NCBI RefSeq assembly: GCF_000284375.1
Contig: NC_017249.1
Coordinates: 868,001 to 932,000 of the forward strand
Source: Bradyrhizobium japonicum USDA 6
Lineage (GTDB): Bacteria; Pseudomonadota; Alphaproteobacteria; Rhizobiales; Xanthobacteraceae
Direction of reading: 5' to 3'
Length of the DNA: 64,000 nucleotides
This document shows, piece by piece, positions 43,429 to 64,000 of the stretch. The notes under the pieces were generated by a model that was given only the letters and a program-made list of their open reading frames with translations, did not search any database and was not told the origin of the DNA. Numbering within the stretch: the first letter of the stretch is position 1; the number at the start of each line of letters is the position of its first letter. The translations under genes and the position numbers were made by a program.

Positions 43429-43873
43429 CTGAAGCACCCCTCCCGACTCGGTTGGTTGCGAAGCCCTGTCCCTGGCGCCGCCACTGGACCGACGTCGTCA
43501 AGCAGGTTCCGTGGTGGCTCATTGCTTGCGGGACGAGCGCTCCTGGGTGATTCAGTCCGACAATAACCGGATATCGGTCTGCGACATCACGCCTGTAATC
43601 GGACCTGCCCCGATGATCGCGACCAGAAAAATGCTGCGATCAGGCTCATTTTCCGCAACGCATAAGCAGTAATACAATTTAAGGGTGCAATCAATTGCGC
43701 AGTTGATCAGAGATTTGTGACCGTTTTTCCACTCGACGTGCTTAGCAGCCGGACGCGCGCGACGTCGCGAAGGCCAGATTGCGAGCCGCAACATTTGATG
43801 GATAGTGCCGTCACCGCGTCAAAAGCCGGCACACAGTCTCGGTAAGGAATAACTCGGCAAAGAGTAAGGAGAC
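43429..43873. other. Intergenic region up to the island junction
   Basis: About 445 bases between the ferritin-like gene start and the tRNA fragment. It presumably contains that gene's promoter. I see no supported gene. Confidence 0.4.
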
Positions 43874-43927
43874 TGGCGCACCCGACACGATTCGAACGTG
43901 TGACCTTTGCCTTCGGAGGGCAAAGGT
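43874..43927 (-). other. attL: 3' fragment of tRNA-Arg(CCG)
   Basis: On the minus strand the sequence reads an anticodon arm GGCAA-type stem with loop CTCCGAA (anticodon CCG), a T arm ACACG-TTCGAAT-CGTGT, acceptor strand CGGGTGC, then GCCA. The 5' half of a tRNA (D arm, 5' acceptor GCACCCG) is absent; in its place is unrelated sequence leading to an integrase. This is the standard outcome of integration into a tRNA 3' end: a fragment remains at one junction and the intact tRNA is rebuilt at the other, expected beyond the right edge of this window. Confidence 0.85.
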
Positions 43928-44076
43928 GAGGATATTGCCTCTGCTTACCTGAAATCCCTTGGAATTGATGATCCCCGGATATAGGCTGAAATCGAACTGA
44001 TTTGGGGTTATGGTCGCTACTCCGAATTTCCCCCGTATTCCAGGCGCTTGCTTACCCAGTGCTTACCCGAGGGAAC

Positions 44077-45345
44077 TTGCCAAAGCTTACGAAACGCACT
44101 GTTGATGTCGCGGAAACAATCGGAGCCGACGTCTTCCTATGGGACGACGAGCTGCCGGGCTTCGGGCTGCGGGTGAAGAAGAGCGGCGTGAAGTCCTTCA
44201 TCGTCCAATACCGGAATGCCAATGGTCGGAGCCGCCGGCTCACGCTAGGTCGGTATGGAGTCCTGACGCCAGAAGAGGCCCGCAAGGACGCTAAGCTGGC
44301 CCTGGCGGACGTCGTGAGGGGCTCGGATCCCGTTGAGAGCAAGAAGCTCGCCCGAGGCGCAATGACGGTTGAGGAACTGTGCAGGGGTTACCTGGACAAG
44401 GCTGAGCGCGGCCTAATTCTGACGCGGCGGGGCGAGACCAAGAGCAAGACGACCCTGTACAGCGACAAGGGGCGCATTGAGCGCCATATCATCAAGCTCG
44501 TTGGCAAGAAGACCGTGAAGGGCTTCACGTCCACCGATGCTAAGGGCCTTCAGCGCGACATCATCGCCGGCAAGTCCGCCGCTGACGTGAAGACCAAGAA
44601 GCGTGGCCGCGCGATTGTGACGGGCGGGAAGGGGACAGCTGCCCGGACGATGGGTCTTCTCGGCGGAATCTTCACGTACGCCGTCGATGAGGGTTATCGG
44701 CCCGACAACCCCGTAAGCGGCATCAGGCGACCAAAGGATCAAACGCTTGAGTGGCGCCTGGATGATGCAGGCTATCGTCGCTTAGGCAAATGCCTCGCCA
44801 CAGCAGAGGCGAACGGCGAGCATTGGCAGCCGATCCTAGCGAGCAGAGCCGCTGCGATGACGGGCTGCCGTCTGGATGAGGTCGAAGGCCTGCTCAAGAC
44901 TGAAGTCGACCTTGTCGGAATGGCGCTTCGGCTCGGCGACAGCAAGACCGGCAAAAGCGTCCGGCCTGTGGGGCCAGCCGTTATTGCCGTTCTGAAGACG
45001 GCAATGGCCAGGTCGAAATCCAAGTTCGTCTTCCCCGCCGTCACAACCGACTCGAAGCACCACACCGGTCTAACCCGCTGGCTGAAGAAGGTCTCTGCCA
45101 AAGATGTACCGGGGATTACCTGCCACGGGCTGCGACATTCGTTCAGCTCGACGGCCGAGGATATCGGCTATTCCATCCCGACCATCAAGGCGCTGATTGG
45201 ACACTCCCGGGCGAGCGTCACCGAGGGTTATATTCACAAGATCGATTCGGCGCTCTTGGCTGCGGCCGATCGGATCGCGCGACACATCGACGATGCCATG
45301 ACAGGACGGAAATCACAGAAGGTGGTCAACCTCAGGAAGGCCTAA
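44077..45345 (+). CDS. Tyrosine site-specific integrase (DUF4102/P4 type)
   Basis: A 422-residue tyrosine recombinase that would catalyse insertion at the tRNA. The N-terminal arm-binding domain has [20 protein letters not shown] and [20 protein letters not shown]. The catalytic residues are Arg in [12 protein letters not shown], His-x-x-Arg in HGLRHSF, His in [13 protein letters not shown] and Tyr in the same block. I propose a TTG start (reading [10 protein letters not shown]) because related integrases begin M-x-KLTKR; the frame remains open 25 codons upstream. It lies 150 bases from attL and points away from it. Confidence 0.92.
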
Positions 45346-50152: not shown

Positions 50153-50726
50153 GGTCCCCCTCTATCGAATGGCCGTATTCCTCGATGCGCCAGTCGGACG
50201 CTCGAAACCTAGCTCCCGAGTTCCGGCGCATGCCGACCAGCCGATTAAGCAAGCCAGTAATACAGCCTTGTTCTCGGCTGATTCGAGCGTGACCTTTTGT
50301 GCCCTCGCCGCGTACGAGCGTGCCGCGTGATTAGGATCGTCGCGCTTGGAGTAGCTTGGATTGGGGAGGCGAAGGAATTAAGGATGGCTCTGATTCCCAG
50401 AGGGGAAGCGCTGTTGCCATAATATCTCCGTTTCGTTGCGAATTGGGCTTGGGCCGGACGTGCCGGCTCGAACGGAGTTATTTAGAATCCAACGGCTGAT
50501 AGGTTCGTGAGAAAGGTGAGTTTTTCTGACCCAGAAATTGCTACCCACGAATCTCCACGTCACGCAAAATATGCCCTTGTCGGGGCGACAAGAATGACAC
50601 TACTCTAAGCTGTTTCGCACACAACTACACTAAAAAAATCACACTTTGCGACCACGAAGTACTGCGGAAACTTTGAGAGGAATTGGCATCGAAATAGTCA
50701 ATACAGAAGCACAAGGAATTTTGAGA
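50153..50726. other. Gene-poor region before the DUF2235 gene
   Basis: About 570 bases without a convincing gene. It contains a short hairpin, CTTGTCG-GGG-CGACAAG at 50576-50592, and AT-rich sequence with an A7 run near 50632, likely part of the promoter of the following gene. Confidence 0.35.
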
Positions 50727-51878
50727 ATGGCACGTACCGGTGGTTTTCGACACCTCATCTACTTCATTGACGGTACATGGCTCTGGGCTGGAAGCGATAG
50801 CAATTTTAATGTGTATTCGAACATCTACCGGCTCAATACACTGCTAAGCGCTGATGACGAAAACGGCCGCGCACAAATCATACACTATTCGAGAGGACTC
50901 GGTTCTGGGACCGGAAAGGCTAAGAAGTGGCTGGCCGGCGCCTTCTCCTTCGGGATCGATGAGCTCGTTGCAGATCTGTACGTCAATATCTGCTCGAATT
51001 TTGAGCGGGGAGACAAGATTTACATCTTCGGGTTTTCGCGAGGAGCCGTGGTTGCTCGCGCACTTACGGGACTTCTCTCTCACGGAATTCTCAAAGCCCA
51101 CCATATCAATCGATTTTCCCAGGTGTGGGCGTCTTACGTGCGCAGCGGAGAAATCCTTCCAGCCGGACAATCGGAATCAACACTGGTCAAATTGAGGTCG
51201 GCGGCCGAAGGGAAACTCGACGACAAGAGCTTCTCAGATCGGACTCCGAGAATCGAGTTTGTCGGCTTATTCGACACCGTCTCCGGCGGTCACGGCCCTT
51301 CTGAAATAGCGCAACAGCTCAGGCTAAGCACCGGCCTCGTCCAGCCGAATGTGAAACATGCCGTTCATCTTTTGTCTATTGACGAGACGAGACTGTTCTT
51401 CAAACCGGTTTACTGGGCTGGACTTGGGTCCAGTCCAAACGGCCCCACTTTCCGCACCAAAAGGACACTCGAGCAAATTTGGATGCCTGGCGTTCATTCC
51501 GACGTCGGCGGCACATACGGCGAGAGGCACTTAGGCAATTTGGCGCTTCTTACGATGATTGATCGCGTGATTGCGCGGACTGAGCTTTTCTTCGATTTGA
51601 AGGAGGTAAGGAAGCTACAGATTCTCCCAGAGAGTGGCGATCCTATTCGAGTGCACGATGAGTTTAACGGCACATGGCGCCTGTGGTCGGACGCGAGCCC
51701 TCGCCTCGTAGATCGGGGTGTTATCCAAGCAATTCATCCGTTCGCGAAGAAAATGACCTCCCTTCCCGTCAACTACAAGGACAAAGCGAACCAGGACCTT
51801 TACAGATTGTCCCCAGAGTTTAGTTCGATGAACGAGGCCGAAGAATTTCTCTCCGGCCACTTCAAAGGCGCTTACTGA
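50727..51878 (+). CDS. DUF2235 alpha/beta hydrolase (Tle1-like phospholipase family)
   Basis: A 383-residue hydrolase of the DUF2235 family. The N-terminal FIDGTW (13-18) is the family start. The nucleophile elbow is FGFSRGA (Ser104), the acid region is FVGLFDTVSG and the His lies in MPGVHSDVGGTYGERHLGN. Related domains occur in type VI secretion phospholipase effectors (Tle1) and in stand-alone proteins. No VgrG, PAAR or immunity gene is adjacent, so a secretion role is unproven. ATG chosen with AAGGAA upstream. No signal peptide. Confidence 0.85.
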   Translation: MARTGGFRHLIYFIDGTWLWAGSDSNFNVYSNIYRLNTLLSADDENGRAQIIHYSRGLGSGTGKAKKWLAGAFSFGIDELVADLYVNICSNFERGDKIYIFGFSRGAVVARALTGLLSHGILKAHHINRFSQVWASYVRSGEILPAGQSESTLVKLRSAAEGKLDDKSFSDRTPRIEFVGLFDTVSGGHGPSEIAQQLRLSTGLVQPNVKHAVHLLSIDETRLFFKPVYWAGLGSSPNGPTFRTKRTLEQIWMPGVHSDVGGTYGERHLGNLALLTMIDRVIARTELFFDLKEVRKLQILPESGDPIRVHDEFNGTWRLWSDASPRLVDRGVIQAIHPFAKKMTSLPVNYKDKANQDLYRLSPEFSSMNEAEEFLSGHFKGAY

Positions 51879-52351: not shown

Positions 52352-53469
52352 GTACCCGGAATCAGAGCTGAGTGATACGGCGGCCTTTGAAACGGCGTTG
52401 ACGGACCTTTTTCTTGGTCCAGACGAAGGGCTCGGCTCTGTCGTTGTATGCGTTGACGTAGGCATCGATGTGTTCCTGAAGCTGCTTGAGGCTCGTGAAG
52501 GAGGTGCCGCTGAGCGACTGCCCCTGCAAGATGGAAAACCATACTTCGACCTGATTGAGCCATGACGCACTTGTCGGCGTGAAATGAAATTGCACGTTGG
52601 GGTGGGCCTTGAGCCAGTCCTCGTTCTTTTTATGGGTGTTGAGGTTGTCGAGGATGACGTGAAGCTTGCGGTTCGGAAAAGTCGCGGTGACGCTGTTCAT
52701 GAAATCGAGAAACTCGACGCGGCGCCGGCGTTTTGAATGGGTCGCGATGATCTTTCCGGTGGCGACTTCGAGCGCCGCAAACAATGTTGTGGTGCCATGC
52801 CGCTTGTAATCGTGGCTTTGGCCGGTTAAGGCGCGGCCATTGGGCAACTTCAGATAACCCTGCGCTCGCTCCAAAGCCTGGATCGAGGGCTTCTCGTCCA
52901 CGCACAGCACAATGGCCTTCGCCGGCGGCGCGACATAGAGGCCGACAACATCGGCGGCTTTGGCCGTAAAGTTCGGGTCGTTGCTCTCGCACCAGGACTT
53001 GCGAGCCACCAGGTCAATCTTGTGGCTGCGCAGGAACCGCCAGACATATTGGACATCGACATCGCCCAGCGCCTCGGCCAGCAGGGGGCCGGTCCAGCGC
53101 GCAAACCCTTGCGGTGGCGGCTTATCCAGCAGCTTCAGAATCCGCTTGTCGGTCGTCTTCGTATAGATCGGCTGCTTGCCAGGCCGCGGCTTGTCTTGCA
53201 GCCCTTCAAGGCCATGGTCGGCATAGCGATGCCGCCAAAGGCTGACAATCCGCGGCTGGACCCCAACTTCCTTGGCGATCGACCGGGTGCTGCGCCCATC
53301 CGCCGCCAACAGAACTATCCGCGCCCGCTTCAAATCGCGCTGCAACGTCACCGGTGAGCGACAGCACGCCTCAAGCACCTTGCGATCTTTCCTCGAAAGG
53401 TGGACTTCTCTTGCTTCGGGTATCATCCCGACCTTGAATCACGACTCACGTTCCAAGAAAAGTGGGTAC
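52352..53469. mobile_element. IS630-family insertion sequence
   Basis: An element of about 1118 bases with ends GTACCC and GGGTAC, flanked by CTA on the left and TAG on the right. This fits IS630-type insertion into CTAG with duplication of TA. It carries a single intact transposase on the minus strand, so it may still be mobile. Confidence 0.8.
52362..53426 (-). CDS. IS630-family transposase
   Basis: A 354-residue transposase with an N-terminal helix-turn-helix (STRSIAKEVGVQPRIVSLWR) and the DDE catalytic core: Asp in VLCVDEKPSIQA, Asp in VILDNLNTHKK and Glu in WLNQVEVWFSIL. Full-length and uninterrupted. It fills nearly the whole element. Confidence 0.95.
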   Translation of the reverse strand: MIPEAREVHLSRKDRKVLEACCRSPVTLQRDLKRARIVLLAADGRSTRSIAKEVGVQPRIVSLWRHRYADHGLEGLQDKPRPGKQPIYTKTTDKRILKLLDKPPPQGFARWTGPLLAEALGDVDVQYVWRFLRSHKIDLVARKSWCESNDPNFTAKAADVVGLYVAPPAKAIVLCVDEKPSIQALERAQGYLKLPNGRALTGQSHDYKRHGTTTLFAALEVATGKIIATHSKRRRRVEFLDFMNSVTATFPNRKLHVILDNLNTHKKNEDWLKAHPNVQFHFTPTSASWLNQVEVWFSILQGQSLSGTSFTSLKQLQEHIDAYVNAYNDRAEPFVWTKKKVRQRRFKGRRITQL

Positions 53470-54913: not shown

Positions 54914-55492
54914 TCAGCCGAAGGGTTTTCTGACAAACTTCTCAAGTTCTTTTCCGAACGGGAAAACTCCATCCCTAATGAAATCCCTCGTGTGTATCCA
55001 GGGATCCTGGATGAATTTCCTTACATCTCCCCCTATGCCCAATGCATCCAACACGTCATCACGCGCCTTGGGAATTAGGGCGTTGTCTCCACCAAGCGGC
55101 CGCCCTTTGTAAATCTCACCCAGGTCGACATGGGCAGCAGCCATATTTCCTGTAAGCAAGACAAACGGGAGCATGGCGACGGTCAGCGCAATATCCGAAA
55201 CCTTTTGCGCATCACCTATCCAGTCAGGAACGGCTTCTTTGTCACAGGCATTCTCGCGGACCTCCGCACTGGTCACCGCCTCGGCCTTCATCTCGTTGAC
55301 CTTCCCACGTAGCTTCAATAAGTTGATAGTGGCGATGCCGCCTTGAATTTCCTTTGCTGCTGGGTCTCTGCCGGCAGCCCTCTCTTCGTCAATCATCTTC
55401 TCAACTTCACGTATTCGCGGCCCATAAAATTCTTCCACCTTCTCACGAATTTTATTTCCGTAGGCGCGACATTGGGCATTGGTTATGGTCAT
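54914..55492 (-). CDS. Cassette protein B1 (uncharacterised)
   Basis: A 192-residue protein related to the gene upstream of it. Shared blocks are an N-terminal MTITNAQCRAYGNKIREKVE, the central KEAVPDWIGDAQKVSDIALT, MLPFVLLTGN, PLGGDNALIPKARDDVLDAL and the identical C-terminal RKPFG. The MLPFVLLTGNMAAA stretch is hydrophobic and could contact a membrane. GAAGGGGATC lies before the ATG. No similarity to any family I know; tandem duplication is evident. Confidence 0.65.
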   Translation of the reverse strand: MTITNAQCRAYGNKIREKVEEFYGPRIREVEKMIDEERAAGRDPAAKEIQGGIATINLLKLRGKVNEMKAEAVTSAEVRENACDKEAVPDWIGDAQKVSDIALTVAMLPFVLLTGNMAAAHVDLGEIYKGRPLGGDNALIPKARDDVLDALGIGGDVRKFIQDPWIHTRDFIRDGVFPFGKELEKFVRKPFG

Positions 55493-55559: not shown

Positions 55560-56332
55560 TCAACCAAACGGCTTCCGGATACGCTCCTCCACATGACGCT
55601 TCGCGCGATCCAGAATCTCTTGTGCCGCACTTGCAGCAGCTCTCGCAGCATCCTCCAGCTGCTTCCGCTCGGCGTTCATAGCCTCTTCCAGGCGCTTCTT
55701 CTCGGCATTCACGGCCTCCGCTGCGGCCCTCCCAGCGTCCTCTGCTAGTTTTGCTGCATCTTCCAGGGCCCTAGCAGTATCCTCCGCTAGTCTCGCAGCT
55801 TCCCTTGCAGATTGCTCTGCCCACTCAGTGGTCTCGTTCAGAGGGTCGCGCAAAAACTTCGCAGCATCCCCTCCAATGTGGAGAGCTTCGAGTACTTCCT
55901 CTCTTGCTTTCGGAATCAATGCGTTGTCGCCACCCAGCGGATATCCTTGATAAACCCTGCCCAAATCAATCTGGGCAGCAGCGTAATTCTTGGTCAACTC
56001 GACAAATGGAAGCATCATCAATGTTGCAGCGATGTCAGACGTTTTCTGAGCATCGCCGAGCCAATCCGGTACGGCTTCGGCATCGCATTTCTCTTCTTGC
56101 CTCCTAGCTTCTTCCAGAGCAGCCTCCCTGGCTTGGCGAACCTCCTGCGCATGCCGGTCGTAGTTCATAGTGGCCAATCCACCGATTACGGGCGTTTTTT
56201 GGGGATCGTGCCCTTCAGCCTTAGCTTTTGCGAGTAGCCCATCGGCGGCCGCAATACGGGGGCATAGAATTCTTCCGCCTTCCCTCGCAATGTATTGCCC
56301 CAGTCGACGCACTGCTTCTTATAGATCGTCAT
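55560..56332 (-). CDS. Cassette protein B2 with long coiled-coil tail, one frameshift
   Basis: Paralogue of B1 with the same core (EAVPDWLGDAQKTSDIAATL, MLPFVELTKNYAAAQ, PLGGDNALIPKAREEVLEAL) and the same RKPFG end. Between core and end is an Ala/Glu/Arg-rich heptad-like coiled coil of about 85 residues absent from B1. The start MTIYKKQCVDWGNTLRGKAE aligns with B1, but the frame breaks after EEFYAP at a run of five (G on the plus strand, 56258-56262). One extra base yields EEFYAPRIAAADG, which aligns with EEFYGPRIREVEK of B1. As written, it is disrupted. Confidence 0.6.
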
Positions 56333-60002: not shown

Positions 60003-61181
60003 CTAGCTGTTTGAGAGACGCACCGTGAAGGCACTGTTTAGGTCACTTGGCTGGATGTTGAGGTTTCGCAAGTGGAGCAGCAGCGTAAGCAGCAGTGCAG
60101 TGTGCTTCGAACTCTCGGGCACGCAAAAACTCTCCCCCGCATAGGGAATGCTGGCGAAGCATCCCAGACCGTGACCACGAACGATGTTTAGAAATGGTTC
60201 GTCCTGGATCAAATCCCTAGCTTGATTTGTGAAGTAGAAGTTTCTCCAACTCAGGGGCTGATTATTCAGTAGCCTACCAAAGTAATTGAAGACGCCGATT
60301 GGCGATCGAAGGCTAAGAAGGAGCTCCACCTCACCGACATCCGCAAATCGATAGGTGAGTTGAACGGTTTTGCTTTGATCGCCACAAAGGGGCCGAAACG
60401 CGACGCCAAGTGAGCGTGTCGGATCGAAGCAAAATCTCCCATGAAATCCGGCTGAAGCCCCATCGCTCGAAGTCGCCGCGCCTTTTGCACCCTTTGCTGC
60501 GGCTGGCTTGTCTGCAGACGTCGACTTTTGCAGTTCTGCGGTGAGGCCGACGTTAGTCAGTCTCCCCATCAAATTGACAAAGAGAGAAAAGCTGCACCGC
60601 TTTGCTTCGGAAAGTAACTTCCCCTCGCCGTGCCCAATCAATTCAAGACACGTATTGTCCTGGTCACGTGATGGGTCGTTTACAAGTCTGACAAGCTCCC
60701 CTGTCGTTTTTCTTCGGACGTAGATACTTTCGACAATGGAGAAGAAGACGGGTTCGCGGGGATAGGCCCCAACCAGAAATGCGACTGTCTTTAGATCGAT
60801 TGGCGATAACATGCCAGTCGAAAATTGAGTCGAGACGAGTGGGGCGGACTGATAGTTTCCCGAGACCCCGCTCTGAACCGAATTCGATATCTGATATTGA
60901 TGTTGCGCCACCGTTTGCAGTGGGCCAAAGGTTACAGTTGGTAGACCCGTGTTCAGCGACTCAGTCTGGCCGCCCGATACCTGCGTAATTGCCACGAAAT
61001 TGAGTGGCTGTAAGTGACTTGAGCGGACGATATTGACTAGCGTCTCTTGGTTTTGGGCGAGTTGAGAATTCCTGTTGCCGTCATAGATGCGCTCTCCAAA
61101 TTGATCAACAGCGGCACAAGATGCGAGCAGCAGAAATGAGAGGGGTACAATTCTTGAAGCGAAATCTAACTTCTTGAACAT
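60003..61181 (-). CDS. Predicted lipoprotein, uncharacterised
   Basis: A 392-residue exported lipoprotein with signal PLSFLLLASCAAVDQFGERI; the lipobox is LLAS-C (Cys22). The mature part begins with QNQETLVNIVRSSHLQPLNF and has a low-complexity Ala/Lys/Gly/Ser linker (PAAAKGAKGAATSSDGAS) separating two beta-rich halves. AGGAGCGAA lies before the ATG. It lies 47 bases downstream of the small secreted coiled-coil gene on the same strand, so they are likely one transcription unit. No family assigned. Confidence 0.75.
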   Translation of the reverse strand: MFKKLDFASRIVPLSFLLLASCAAVDQFGERIYDGNRNSQLAQNQETLVNIVRSSHLQPLNFVAITQVSGGQTESLNTGLPTVTFGPLQTVAQHQYQISNSVQSGVSGNYQSAPLVSTQFSTGMLSPIDLKTVAFLVGAYPREPVFFSIVESIYVRRKTTGELVRLVNDPSRDQDNTCLELIGHGEGKLLSEAKRCSFSLFVNLMGRLTNVGLTAELQKSTSADKPAAAKGAKGAATSSDGASAGFHGRFCFDPTRSLGVAFRPLCGDQSKTVQLTYRFADVGEVELLLSLRSPIGVFNYFGRLLNNQPLSWRNFYFTNQARDLIQDEPFLNIVRGHGLGCFASIPYAGESFCVPESSKHTALLLTLLLHLRNLNIQPSDLNSAFTVRLSNS

Positions 61182-61542: not shown

Positions 61543-61921
61543 GGCGCCCCCGAAGACGTAAGAAGACCTAAATACAACTTCTATAAGAAAGCCACTTAAG
61601 GTTTGCAGAGTCAACGGGCAAACGCAGCTTGGCCGAAGCGCGGAGCGGTTCGGTTTTCAAGAGCCGTCGGCGAAGCCGGCACCCATCAGCACAAATTGCA
61701 TATCTCGTGTCCTCGTGGTCGGCCAACATCCCAAAGCCTTGGCCAGGGGAGTGGCCTCCCTTGAACGGACACTTGGGGAAAGCCTGGGTCAGGTCAACAA
61801 AACCCTTGAGAGCTGGCCCCATACACCGTTTGGTCCTAGCGCCAAAGTAGCGGTTTTCAGTAGTCTGCAACTGACGCTATTAAGGCTCTCTCCCAGGAAG
61901 CAAGTCCGGAAAACAAGGCGC
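61543..61921. other. Divergent promoter region
   Basis: About 380 bases between the leftward secreted-protein gene and the rightward phosphoesterase gene. No gene supported; a hairpin-like GCCGTCGGCGAAGCCGGC lies near 61662. It presumably holds promoters for both directions. Confidence 0.35.
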
Positions 61922-63259
61922 ATGTCCAAAATCCGAATGGTTCATCTGTCCGACATTCATTTTGGCCAAGAGGACAAGGACGGCACATTCCACCATCAAG
62001 ATGACGTGCGGGACGCTGTGACGCGTGATTGCAAGGTGCTGCGCGAAAGATTGGGGCCTGTCAATGGCATCCTTGTAACGGGCGACATCGCCTATGCGGG
62101 CAAGAAGGCCGAATATGATCGCGCTGGAATTTGGCTGGACAAAATCTGCGACATTGTGGGCTGCGAACGGCGGGCCGTTCACATTATTCCAGGAAACCAT
62201 GACGTTGACCGATCGCGAATTGATTATGGTGTCGAACGTATGCACCAGGATTTTCGCGTCTGCTCCCCCGATGATGTTGACAAGATACTGACAAAGATTC
62301 TCGGGGCCGATCCAAAGGAGCTCAGCACGAGCGGCGTTGCTTTTTTCGAGAAGCTGGCGGCCTACCGTGAATTCTCAAACCGATACGAATCTGACTTTCA
62401 GAGCGAACGGCGCCCGGTTTGTATCAAGGAGGTCAAATTTCCGACTGGTCATGTGCTGAGATTTTTCGGGATGACTAGCGTTCAAGTCTGCGACGGGAAC
62501 GACACAAAAGGCACAATGATCCTTGGCAGCAGCCAGTACATCTTCAAACCAGAAGATAATGTGGAGTATGTGGTGATGTGCCATCACCCGCTTCATTGGT
62601 TCAAGGACGAGGCTGATGCCTTGCCTCGGATCCGTACGCGAGGAAGAGTTCTACTCGCGGGGCACGAGCATCAAGCCCGTTTCCGGAAGATTATGGAAGG
62701 CAATGCGGAATATCTCATACTGGATGCTGGCGCGACGACTCCGCCCGGAAACGAGAAGCGTTCGCCCTTTTCTTACAATTGGCTAGAGTTCGGCCTATCC
62801 GAAGCGAACGGCAGCTTTTCACTGAATGTTTCGGTGTTCCCCCGCAAATGGATTCACGACAAGGCGGAATTTGACACGGATCGGGAGCGAACCGATGGAG
62901 CCGAGTTTGAAAGATTTTCCGTGTCGTGCCGAAACTACTCCAAAATTGCTGAGGCCCCGCCAGCGGAGACCGTTTCCGCAACGCCAGTCGGCGTAAGCGA
63001 AGAGGAGGCTGCAACCATGCCTGACGAAGAGCGGTTTGCAAGACTTCTCTATTTCTTCTGGCGGTACCTCGACTGGCGGCAAAGGTATGCAGTCCTCGCG
63101 AAGGTCGACGTGTTGCCGAAAGGGCTAGAACGACCGATGCCGCAGCTCGTGGAACGAAGTGCGCTTTCGACAGCGCGGGACAGAAATAAGCTTGCTGAAG
63201 TATGGGACGAGGTAATGACGCACGTCCCAGAGGCAGAGCGACAACAAAATCCATTTTGA
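61922..63259 (+). CDS. Metallophosphoesterase with C-terminal helical adaptor-like domain
   Basis: A 445-residue protein. The N-terminal about 300 residues are a calcineurin-like phosphoesterase with all metal motifs: HLSDIHFG, VTGDIAYAG, PGNHDVDR, CHHPLHWF and AGHEHQARF. The C-terminal about 85 residues (from EERFARLLYFFWRYLDWRQR with YAVLAKVDVLPKGLE) form a small helical domain resembling effector-associated adaptor domains of NTP-dependent conflict systems. It is followed 12 bases later by a GASH-like gene. Predicted role: effector or nucleotide-processing component of a defence module. Start MSKIRMVHLSDIHF chosen by the fold. Confidence 0.8.
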   Translation: MSKIRMVHLSDIHFGQEDKDGTFHHQDDVRDAVTRDCKVLRERLGPVNGILVTGDIAYAGKKAEYDRAGIWLDKICDIVGCERRAVHIIPGNHDVDRSRIDYGVERMHQDFRVCSPDDVDKILTKILGADPKELSTSGVAFFEKLAAYREFSNRYESDFQSERRPVCIKEVKFPTGHVLRFFGMTSVQVCDGNDTKGTMILGSSQYIFKPEDNVEYVVMCHHPLHWFKDEADALPRIRTRGRVLLAGHEHQARFRKIMEGNAEYLILDAGATTPPGNEKRSPFSYNWLEFGLSEANGSFSLNVSVFPRKWIHDKAEFDTDRERTDGAEFERFSVSCRNYSKIAEAPPAETVSATPVGVSEEEAATMPDEERFARLLYFFWRYLDWRQRYAVLAKVDVLPKGLERPMPQLVERSALSTARDRNKLAEVWDEVMTHVPEAERQQNPF

Positions 63260-63271
63260 CGGAGGTGGAAA

Positions 63272-64000
63272 ATGCTTTCGAAGGTTTTTGAGTGGAGCCG
63301 AATTATACATCCGGCGCCTGAAGATGATTTTGTGACGAAGCGAACGGCCGTTGTTGGCGCTCTAGTAGAGGCGTTCTCTTCGAACGTCGAACGGATGATC
63401 GATTGCGCTTGCATTGCCGCGGTGGGCGTCACAGCACGCTTCACGCAGGAAACGCCGATCATTTCTGAAATCATTGCGGCAATAAAAAGGAACAGCCTGC
63501 GACGCCAGAGGCGTTGAGCGAAAACCATCTGAACGTGTGGTCGTGCTGCGCGCTAGTGGTGGGCGAAATCGCCGAGAGACGGACGAAGAAATGGGGTCGC
63601 TCGGCGAGCTCTGATGCCGTGGTCGCAGTGGCGTTGGCCGCACTTTCGAACAAGCGGCCTCCGACCGAGAAATACCTTCGCGATATGCTAGCCGACCTGA
63701 TGGAGGTATGCAAAGCTGCCGCAAAGAGCTCGGCGGGATATCGGCATAGCCGCTGGACCTTGCCGACCTACATTGAGAAAATCAAAGAGGCCGCGGATGT
63801 CCCGGCCTTCTGGACGGAGGCCAAGGAGCAATTCTCCGGCTTGGCAAATGCAATTGAGGTCAACGAGCAAGTTACGCGCGAGGAGCTTGATACGCTGTGG
63901 TGGGCCTTCAACGGCATATCGACAGGCACCGAAGCTCCGTTCGCTGATGTGACGGCAGGGTTAGTCGCCCTCGACAGCGCCACGGAGCTATCAGAGCTTG
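63272..64000 (+). CDS. GASH-like all-helical protein, partial, one frameshift
   Basis: Begins MLSKVFEWSRIIHPAPEDDF with GGAGGTGG before the ATG. After IISEIIAAI the frame breaks at a run of five A (63484-63488); one added A gives KKEQPATPEALSENHLNVWS and an open frame to the window end. The later part, VTREELDTLWWAFNGISTGT and PFADVTAGLVALDSATELSE, matches my recollection of the GTPase-associated system helical (GASH) family, found beside GTPases and effectors in predicted conflict systems. The rest of the gene and any GTPase partner lie beyond the window. Confidence 0.6.

Follow-up and report, generated by a model that had tools for sequence, protein, structure and literature searches.

The 64,000-nucleotide stretch of Bradyrhizobium japonicum USDA 6 analyzed here (the window; positions 868001-932000 of the 9.2-Mb single-contig genome) ends within an operon of five genes. 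In order, they encode a calcineurin-like phosphoesterase with a GTPase-associated adaptor domain (GAAD), the protein GASH, DO-GTPase2, DO-GTPase1 and GAP1-N1. We interpret this operon with good confidence as a GTPase-centric conflict operon of the GAP1-N1 type, predicted to act against phages, in which the GTPases gate a phosphoesterase effector. Membership in the GAP1-N1 class is almost certain. A role in conflict or defence is predicted and likely, if slightly less secure than the overall reading, and the effector mechanism proposed below is tentative, with slightly less than even odds. At the level of sequence, the gene set, the gene order, the intact catalytic motifs and the borders and mobility of the island that carries the operon are established (Table 1).

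Table 1 Features of the operon and its island, numbered from the first letter of the window (window-equivalent numbers beyond 64,000)
Feature	Position	Strand or place	Basis
Calcineurin-like metallophosphoesterase with C-terminal GAAD	61922..63259	+	Pfam Metallophos and GAAD; 445 amino acids from ATG
GAAD, effector residues 373-432	63038..63217	+	PF19976 1.2e-8, 35.3 bits vs cut-off 23.6
GASH gene, piece 1 (before frame break)	63272..63517	+	PF19994 0.0014, profile 6-71, below cut-off; aligns to N-terminus of intact GASH proteins
GASH gene, piece 2	63514..64000, onward to window-equivalent 64359	+	PF19994 3.1e-7 within window (above cut-off), 2.1e-17 to stop, 63.9 bits vs cut-off 27
DO-GTPase2	window-equivalent 64363-65208, tail in another frame to 65372	downstream of window	PF19993 3.2e-46
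DO-GTPase1	window-equivalent about 65375-66274	downstream of window	PF19975 2.7e-63
GAP1-N1	window-equivalent about 66280-69033	downstream of window	PF20012 3e-29, 101.7 bits vs cut-off 27
Left attachment repeat, 52-bp perfect copy of tRNA-Arg(CCG) 3' part	43872..43923	+	exact repeat
Tyrosine integrase of island	44002..45345	+	Pfam Arm-DNA-bind_3 1.5e-16, Phage_integrase 2.6e-12
Right copy of 52-bp repeat	window-equivalent 69939-69990	outside window	exact repeat
tRNA-Arg(CCG)	window-equivalent 69941-70017 (L002:8441-8517)	-	ARAGORN on DNA right of window

Genes of the operon

The first-pass annotation, made from the letters of the window, had proposed a calcineurin-like phosphoesterase with an added helical domain. 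This agrees with the profile matches, as Metallophos (PF00149) covers residues 5-251 (2.4e-7) and the additional domain is GAAD, which is helical in the AlphaFold2 model of the protein (mean predicted local distance difference test, pLDDT, 88). Both matches lie above the curated cut-offs. Apart from Metallophos_2, which stays below its cut-off, Pfam gave nothing else on this protein at E <= 0.1. An alternative, longer in-frame start of the open reading frame (ORF) is the GTG at 61715. All 13 motif positions of the enzyme domain (D11, H13, G54-D55, G91-N92-H93-D94, H221-H222 and G247-H248-x-H250) are invariant (46/46). Among solved structures, a search by sequence gave the phosphoesterase only weak matches (2xmo, 2dxl and 2zo9; E 5e-5 to 5e-4).

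The GASH gene starts with the ATG at 63272, leaving a gap of 12 bases after the phosphoesterase stop, as had been annotated. It is read in two pieces in different frames with a break near 63510, and the two pieces were searched apart against PF19994, without a frame-corrected protein. The second piece passes the cut-off and the first one does not. Hence, the earlier assignment to a GASH-type GTPase-centered conflict system, for which a profile search had been suggested, is supported by GASH itself as well as by two GTPases and GAP1 downstream. The motif EELDTLWW, on which that assignment was partly based, lies within the stretch REELDTLWWAFNG and is kept in six GASH relatives of alignment A1 and in the public protein P0241. 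The protein does not end at this motif and FADVTAGL, as first thought, but is cut by the window and runs on to 64359.

A look for a GTPase or protease to the right of position 64000 had been suggested, and DO-GTPase2, DO-GTPase1 and GAP1-N1 were found there. By eye, the N-terminus of DO-GTPase2 has four cysteines, as do P0122 and P0125; it gave no zinc-ribbon profile match. For GAP1, GAP1-N1 was the only N-terminal type matched, with no GAP1-N2, and Pfam found no EAD1 in it at E <= 0.1. A sequence search of solved structures with GAP1 returned nothing usable (best E 0.43).

Known systems and relatives

In the excerpted text of Kaur, Burroughs, Iyer and Aravind (2020, eLife 9:e52696, PMC7159879), GAP1-N1 systems are defined by GAP1, GASH and two DO-GTPases, one of which has a zinc ribbon. 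According to the same excerpts, the commonest effector of GAP1-N1/GASH systems is a phosphoesterase of the calcineurin superfamily, predicted to be a nucleotidyl phosphodiesterase. Effectors are frequently coupled by fusion to GAAD and otherwise by EAD1 or direct fusion, and the action of the class against invading elements is a prediction. GAP1-N1, GASH, two DO-GTPases, the calcineurin phosphoesterase effector and GAAD are all present in the operon. There is no defining difference, the particulars of the copy described here being its tRNA-Arg island and its two frame breaks. GAP1-N2 systems differ, as they have GAP1-N2 and a protein with FNIII repeats instead of GASH, whereas the operon has GAP1-N1 and GASH.

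The excerpts of the DefensePredictor study (Science 2026, PMC13092281) describe two systems, DS-8 and DS-9, with a metallophosphatase domain homologous to the operon effector. Mutation of the catalytic residues abolishes phage defence by DS-8, a metallophosphatase-NACHT protein, and DS-9 likewise loses defence. DS-8 carries NACHT in the same chain and DS-9 has a HAD phosphatase partner, whereas the operon has GAAD and the GTPase-GAP1-GASH set instead. The PADLOC search covered the phosphoesterase, the two window pieces of GASH and the neighbouring ORF at 60003-61181, and neither it nor the NCBIfam search extended to the DO-GTPases and GAP1. The NCBIfam model DS8_antiphage matched residues 8-294 of the phosphoesterase (6.1e-29, 100.4 bits vs cut-off 790) and DS9_1 matched with 1.1e-15 (57.5 bits vs cut-off 420). 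As these scores are below the full-length cut-offs and neither NACHT nor a HAD partner is present, the operon is not a DS-8 or DS-9 system. In PADLOC, PDC-S60 (1.3e-14) and an "Effector" model (2.4e-12) each cover part of the enzyme domain.

GASH occurs in 6 of 100 relatives, in 3 of 387 genomes of the class and in 5 of 397 genomes of the phylum, with our own genome included in each count. Loci were picked by GASH in all nine other genomes above the family cut-off; G280, below it, was left out. At eight of these nine loci, the phosphoesterase lies directly upstream of GASH, followed by DO-GTPase2, DO-GTPase1 and GAP1. Four further loci (L033-L036), chosen by GAAD and outside this count, have a phosphoesterase match in all four cases. 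In some places, tblastn missed genes of the set. GASH was missed in L015, L016, L018, L019, L037 and L038 and GAP1 in L037, where the profile search finds them; DO-GTPase2 was missed in L033 and L037, which have an ORF of fitting size in its place.

The ninth locus (L037, genome G651) shares GASH and GAP1-N1, found by profile, and DO-GTPase1, identified by sequence match. Here, a PNP_UDP_1-EAD1 protein downstream of GAP1-EAD1 takes the place of the phosphoesterase, whereas the operon has its phosphoesterase-GAAD upstream of GASH. Thus, the effector has been exchanged and the coupling changes along with it, which matches the description by Kaur et al. The L037 operon (L037:5640-9412) directly follows genes for a Mu-type transposase, TniB and TniQ, and may be transposon cargo, judging from these neighbours. 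Such a transposon would be Tn7/Tn5053-like.

A protein search with the phosphoesterase gave 647 proteins at E <= 0.001 (7994 candidates scored). Among the 120 matches listed, precomputed Pfam assigns GAAD to 116 and Metallophos to 116, and the closest named relative is from Bradyrhizobium sp. BWA-3-5 (87% identity). Within the genus, a phosphoesterase match at E <= 1e-20 was found in 15 of 265 genomes and GAAD in 9 of 195 (own genome included in both). In a search of named genome contigs with the phosphoesterase, 13 stretches fitted a pattern and none was confirmed. Relatives at E <= 1e-5 were present in 29 of 72,556 plasmid records, 22 of the 29 being typed as conjugative. On the two plasmids examined, from Agrobacterium tumefaciens and Caballeronia, a metallophosphoesterase and GASH are followed without interruption by three hypothetical proteins, and in both the annotation reads metallophosphoesterase, then "GTPase-associated system all-helical protein GASH". 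On the Caballeronia sp. NK8 plasmid (L055, 1-5745), genes for an integrase, a DUF4231 protein and a protein with a TIR domain lie upstream of this operon.

Proposed mechanism and alternative readings

In the proposed mechanism, the DO-GTPase pair and GAP1 would form a GTP-dependent switch which detects infection and sets the threshold. The phosphoesterase would be docked on GAP1 by its GAAD. Once activated, the di-metal enzyme would cut a phosphodiester, either in a nucleotide or cyclic-nucleotide pool or in nucleic acid. Phage growth would thereby be halted, possibly by halting the cell. That GASH serves as a structural bridge is a guess.

Several points weigh against our interpretation. In the assembly, there is one change of frame in GASH and one in DO-GTPase2. 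In the excerpts of PMC7159879, the docking of GAAD on GAP1 is itself a prediction, and searches of the open-licence PMC literature, which leaves aside bioRxiv and most subscription papers, yielded no experiments on a GAP1-N1 system among the papers listed, of which Kaur et al. and PMC8195603 (2021) were relevant. Among the five relatives of the same genus that were chosen by GASH, two (G012 and G017) have no GAAD match at E <= 0.001, though the phosphoesterase operon is present; on the sequences, either the coupling varies or GAAD has drifted. The structure model of GAP1 is weak (pLDDT 65, predicted template modelling score 0.40, from 13 divergent sequences), and neither window piece of GASH matched a PADLOC family at E <= 0.1. 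Finally, the phosphoesterase resembles phosphodiesterases, phosphatases, sphingomyelinases and nucleases alike in fold, so no single substrate is indicated.

With GASH and DO-GTPase2 each split, the operon could be decaying, its function lost through the two breaks. We consider this rather unlikely. P0241, 100% identical to the second GASH piece, and the public protein P0121, 99% identical over 94% of the DO-GTPase2 piece, read across the respective breaks (both start some residues later than is usual in the family). By eye, both breaks are at or adjoin short mononucleotide runs, that of GASH being an A-run; such runs are common sites of sequencing errors. The frames of the phosphoesterase, DO-GTPase1 and GAP1 are open. 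Both an assembly error and a very recent change would fit the breaks; unless the first explanation holds, they may have silenced this copy of the operon. The A-run at the GASH break also raised the idea of a programmed frameshift, which was set aside since P0241 continues through the site in one frame.

It is unlikely that the phosphoesterase is a regulator and not a weapon, i.e., that by breaking down a nucleotide second messenger it holds the GTPase-GAP1 switch in the off state or returns it to that state. The idea draws on the fold, which is common to SMPDL3A and Rv0805; the latter is a cyclic-nucleotide phosphodiesterase. Against it, the phosphoesterase occupies the role of the variable effector, filled in L037 by a PNP-type enzyme, and Pfam matched no nucleotide cyclase family in the operon proteins.

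Whether the effector is instead a nuclease like Mre11/SbcD, cutting phage or host DNA, bears on the same fold matches, which comprise purple acid phosphatases, Rv0805, SMPDL3A/B, GpdQ and Mre11. In the Foldseek order, Mre11 is level with SMPDL3B, and the matches include chains of both Mre11 and SbcD. By VIA-align Z, they (about 16-18) fall behind the YydB model (31.9), purple acid phosphatases (about 21.6) and SMPDL3A (about 20), although rank among fold matches does not reveal the substrate. YydB, taken from the YydD-YydB complex 9a6c, an integrative model from crosslinking and deep learning, is 18% identical to the phosphoesterase. The NCBIfam model sbcd matched at 0.0045, far below its cut-off. 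We judge a nuclease of this kind improbable as the effector.

The first-pass view that the phosphoesterase-GASH pairing had not been described is practically untenable, because the excerpts of Kaur et al. (PMC7159879) describe both the phosphoesterase effector and its coupling by GAAD, and the pair is already annotated on the two plasmids.

The tRNA-Arg island and the meaning of the operon

The earlier placement of the operon on a tRNA-integrated island is borne out by the 52-bp repeat and the integrase; the tRNA-Arg(CCG) itself lies outside the window, about 0.9 kb beyond GAP1, and ARAGORN found no tRNA inside the 64-kb window. The integrase ORF is separated from the left repeat copy by 78 bases. 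With its integrase beside direct repeats, one of them inside a tRNA gene, the element is a tRNA-integrated island; it measures 26,119 bp (26.1 kb) from repeat end to repeat end. Its content of guanine and cytosine is 55.7%, compared with 64.4% in the 20 kb on the left and 65.7% on the right (to the end of L002). Judged by its position, the conflict operon is cargo of this island at the tRNA end.

Other genes of the island were noted. A protein with a catalytic domain like that of the type VI secretion system phospholipase Tle1 is encoded at 50646-51878 (+; PF09994 5.9e-57). A transposase with DDE_3 and HTH domains, which we take to be IS630-like, lies at 52362-53426 (-). The ORFs 54914-55492 and 55560-56312 (-) look like paralogues by eye, sharing the stretches PDWxGDAQKxSDIA and PLGGDNALIPKAR; no Pfam family matched them above cut-off. 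Next to the operon on the opposite strand (60003-61181, -) is a 392-amino-acid ORF whose start, by eye, resembles that of a lipoprotein (LLLASCA) and for which Pfam, NCBIfam and PADLOC gave nothing at E <= 0.1.

The operon adds an island-borne member to a predicted immune class which has been in print since 2020, the pairing itself not being new. It is possible, though somewhat doubtful, that an intact copy would, as far as the literature was searched, provide the first demonstration of a GAP1-N1/GASH system stopping phage, its executing enzyme being a GTPase-gated phosphoesterase that is related to DS-8, structurally similar to human SMPDL3A and acts on a nucleotide substrate. DS-8 has the same enzyme domain, and this precedent (PMC13092281) makes the effector step testable via catalytic mutants.
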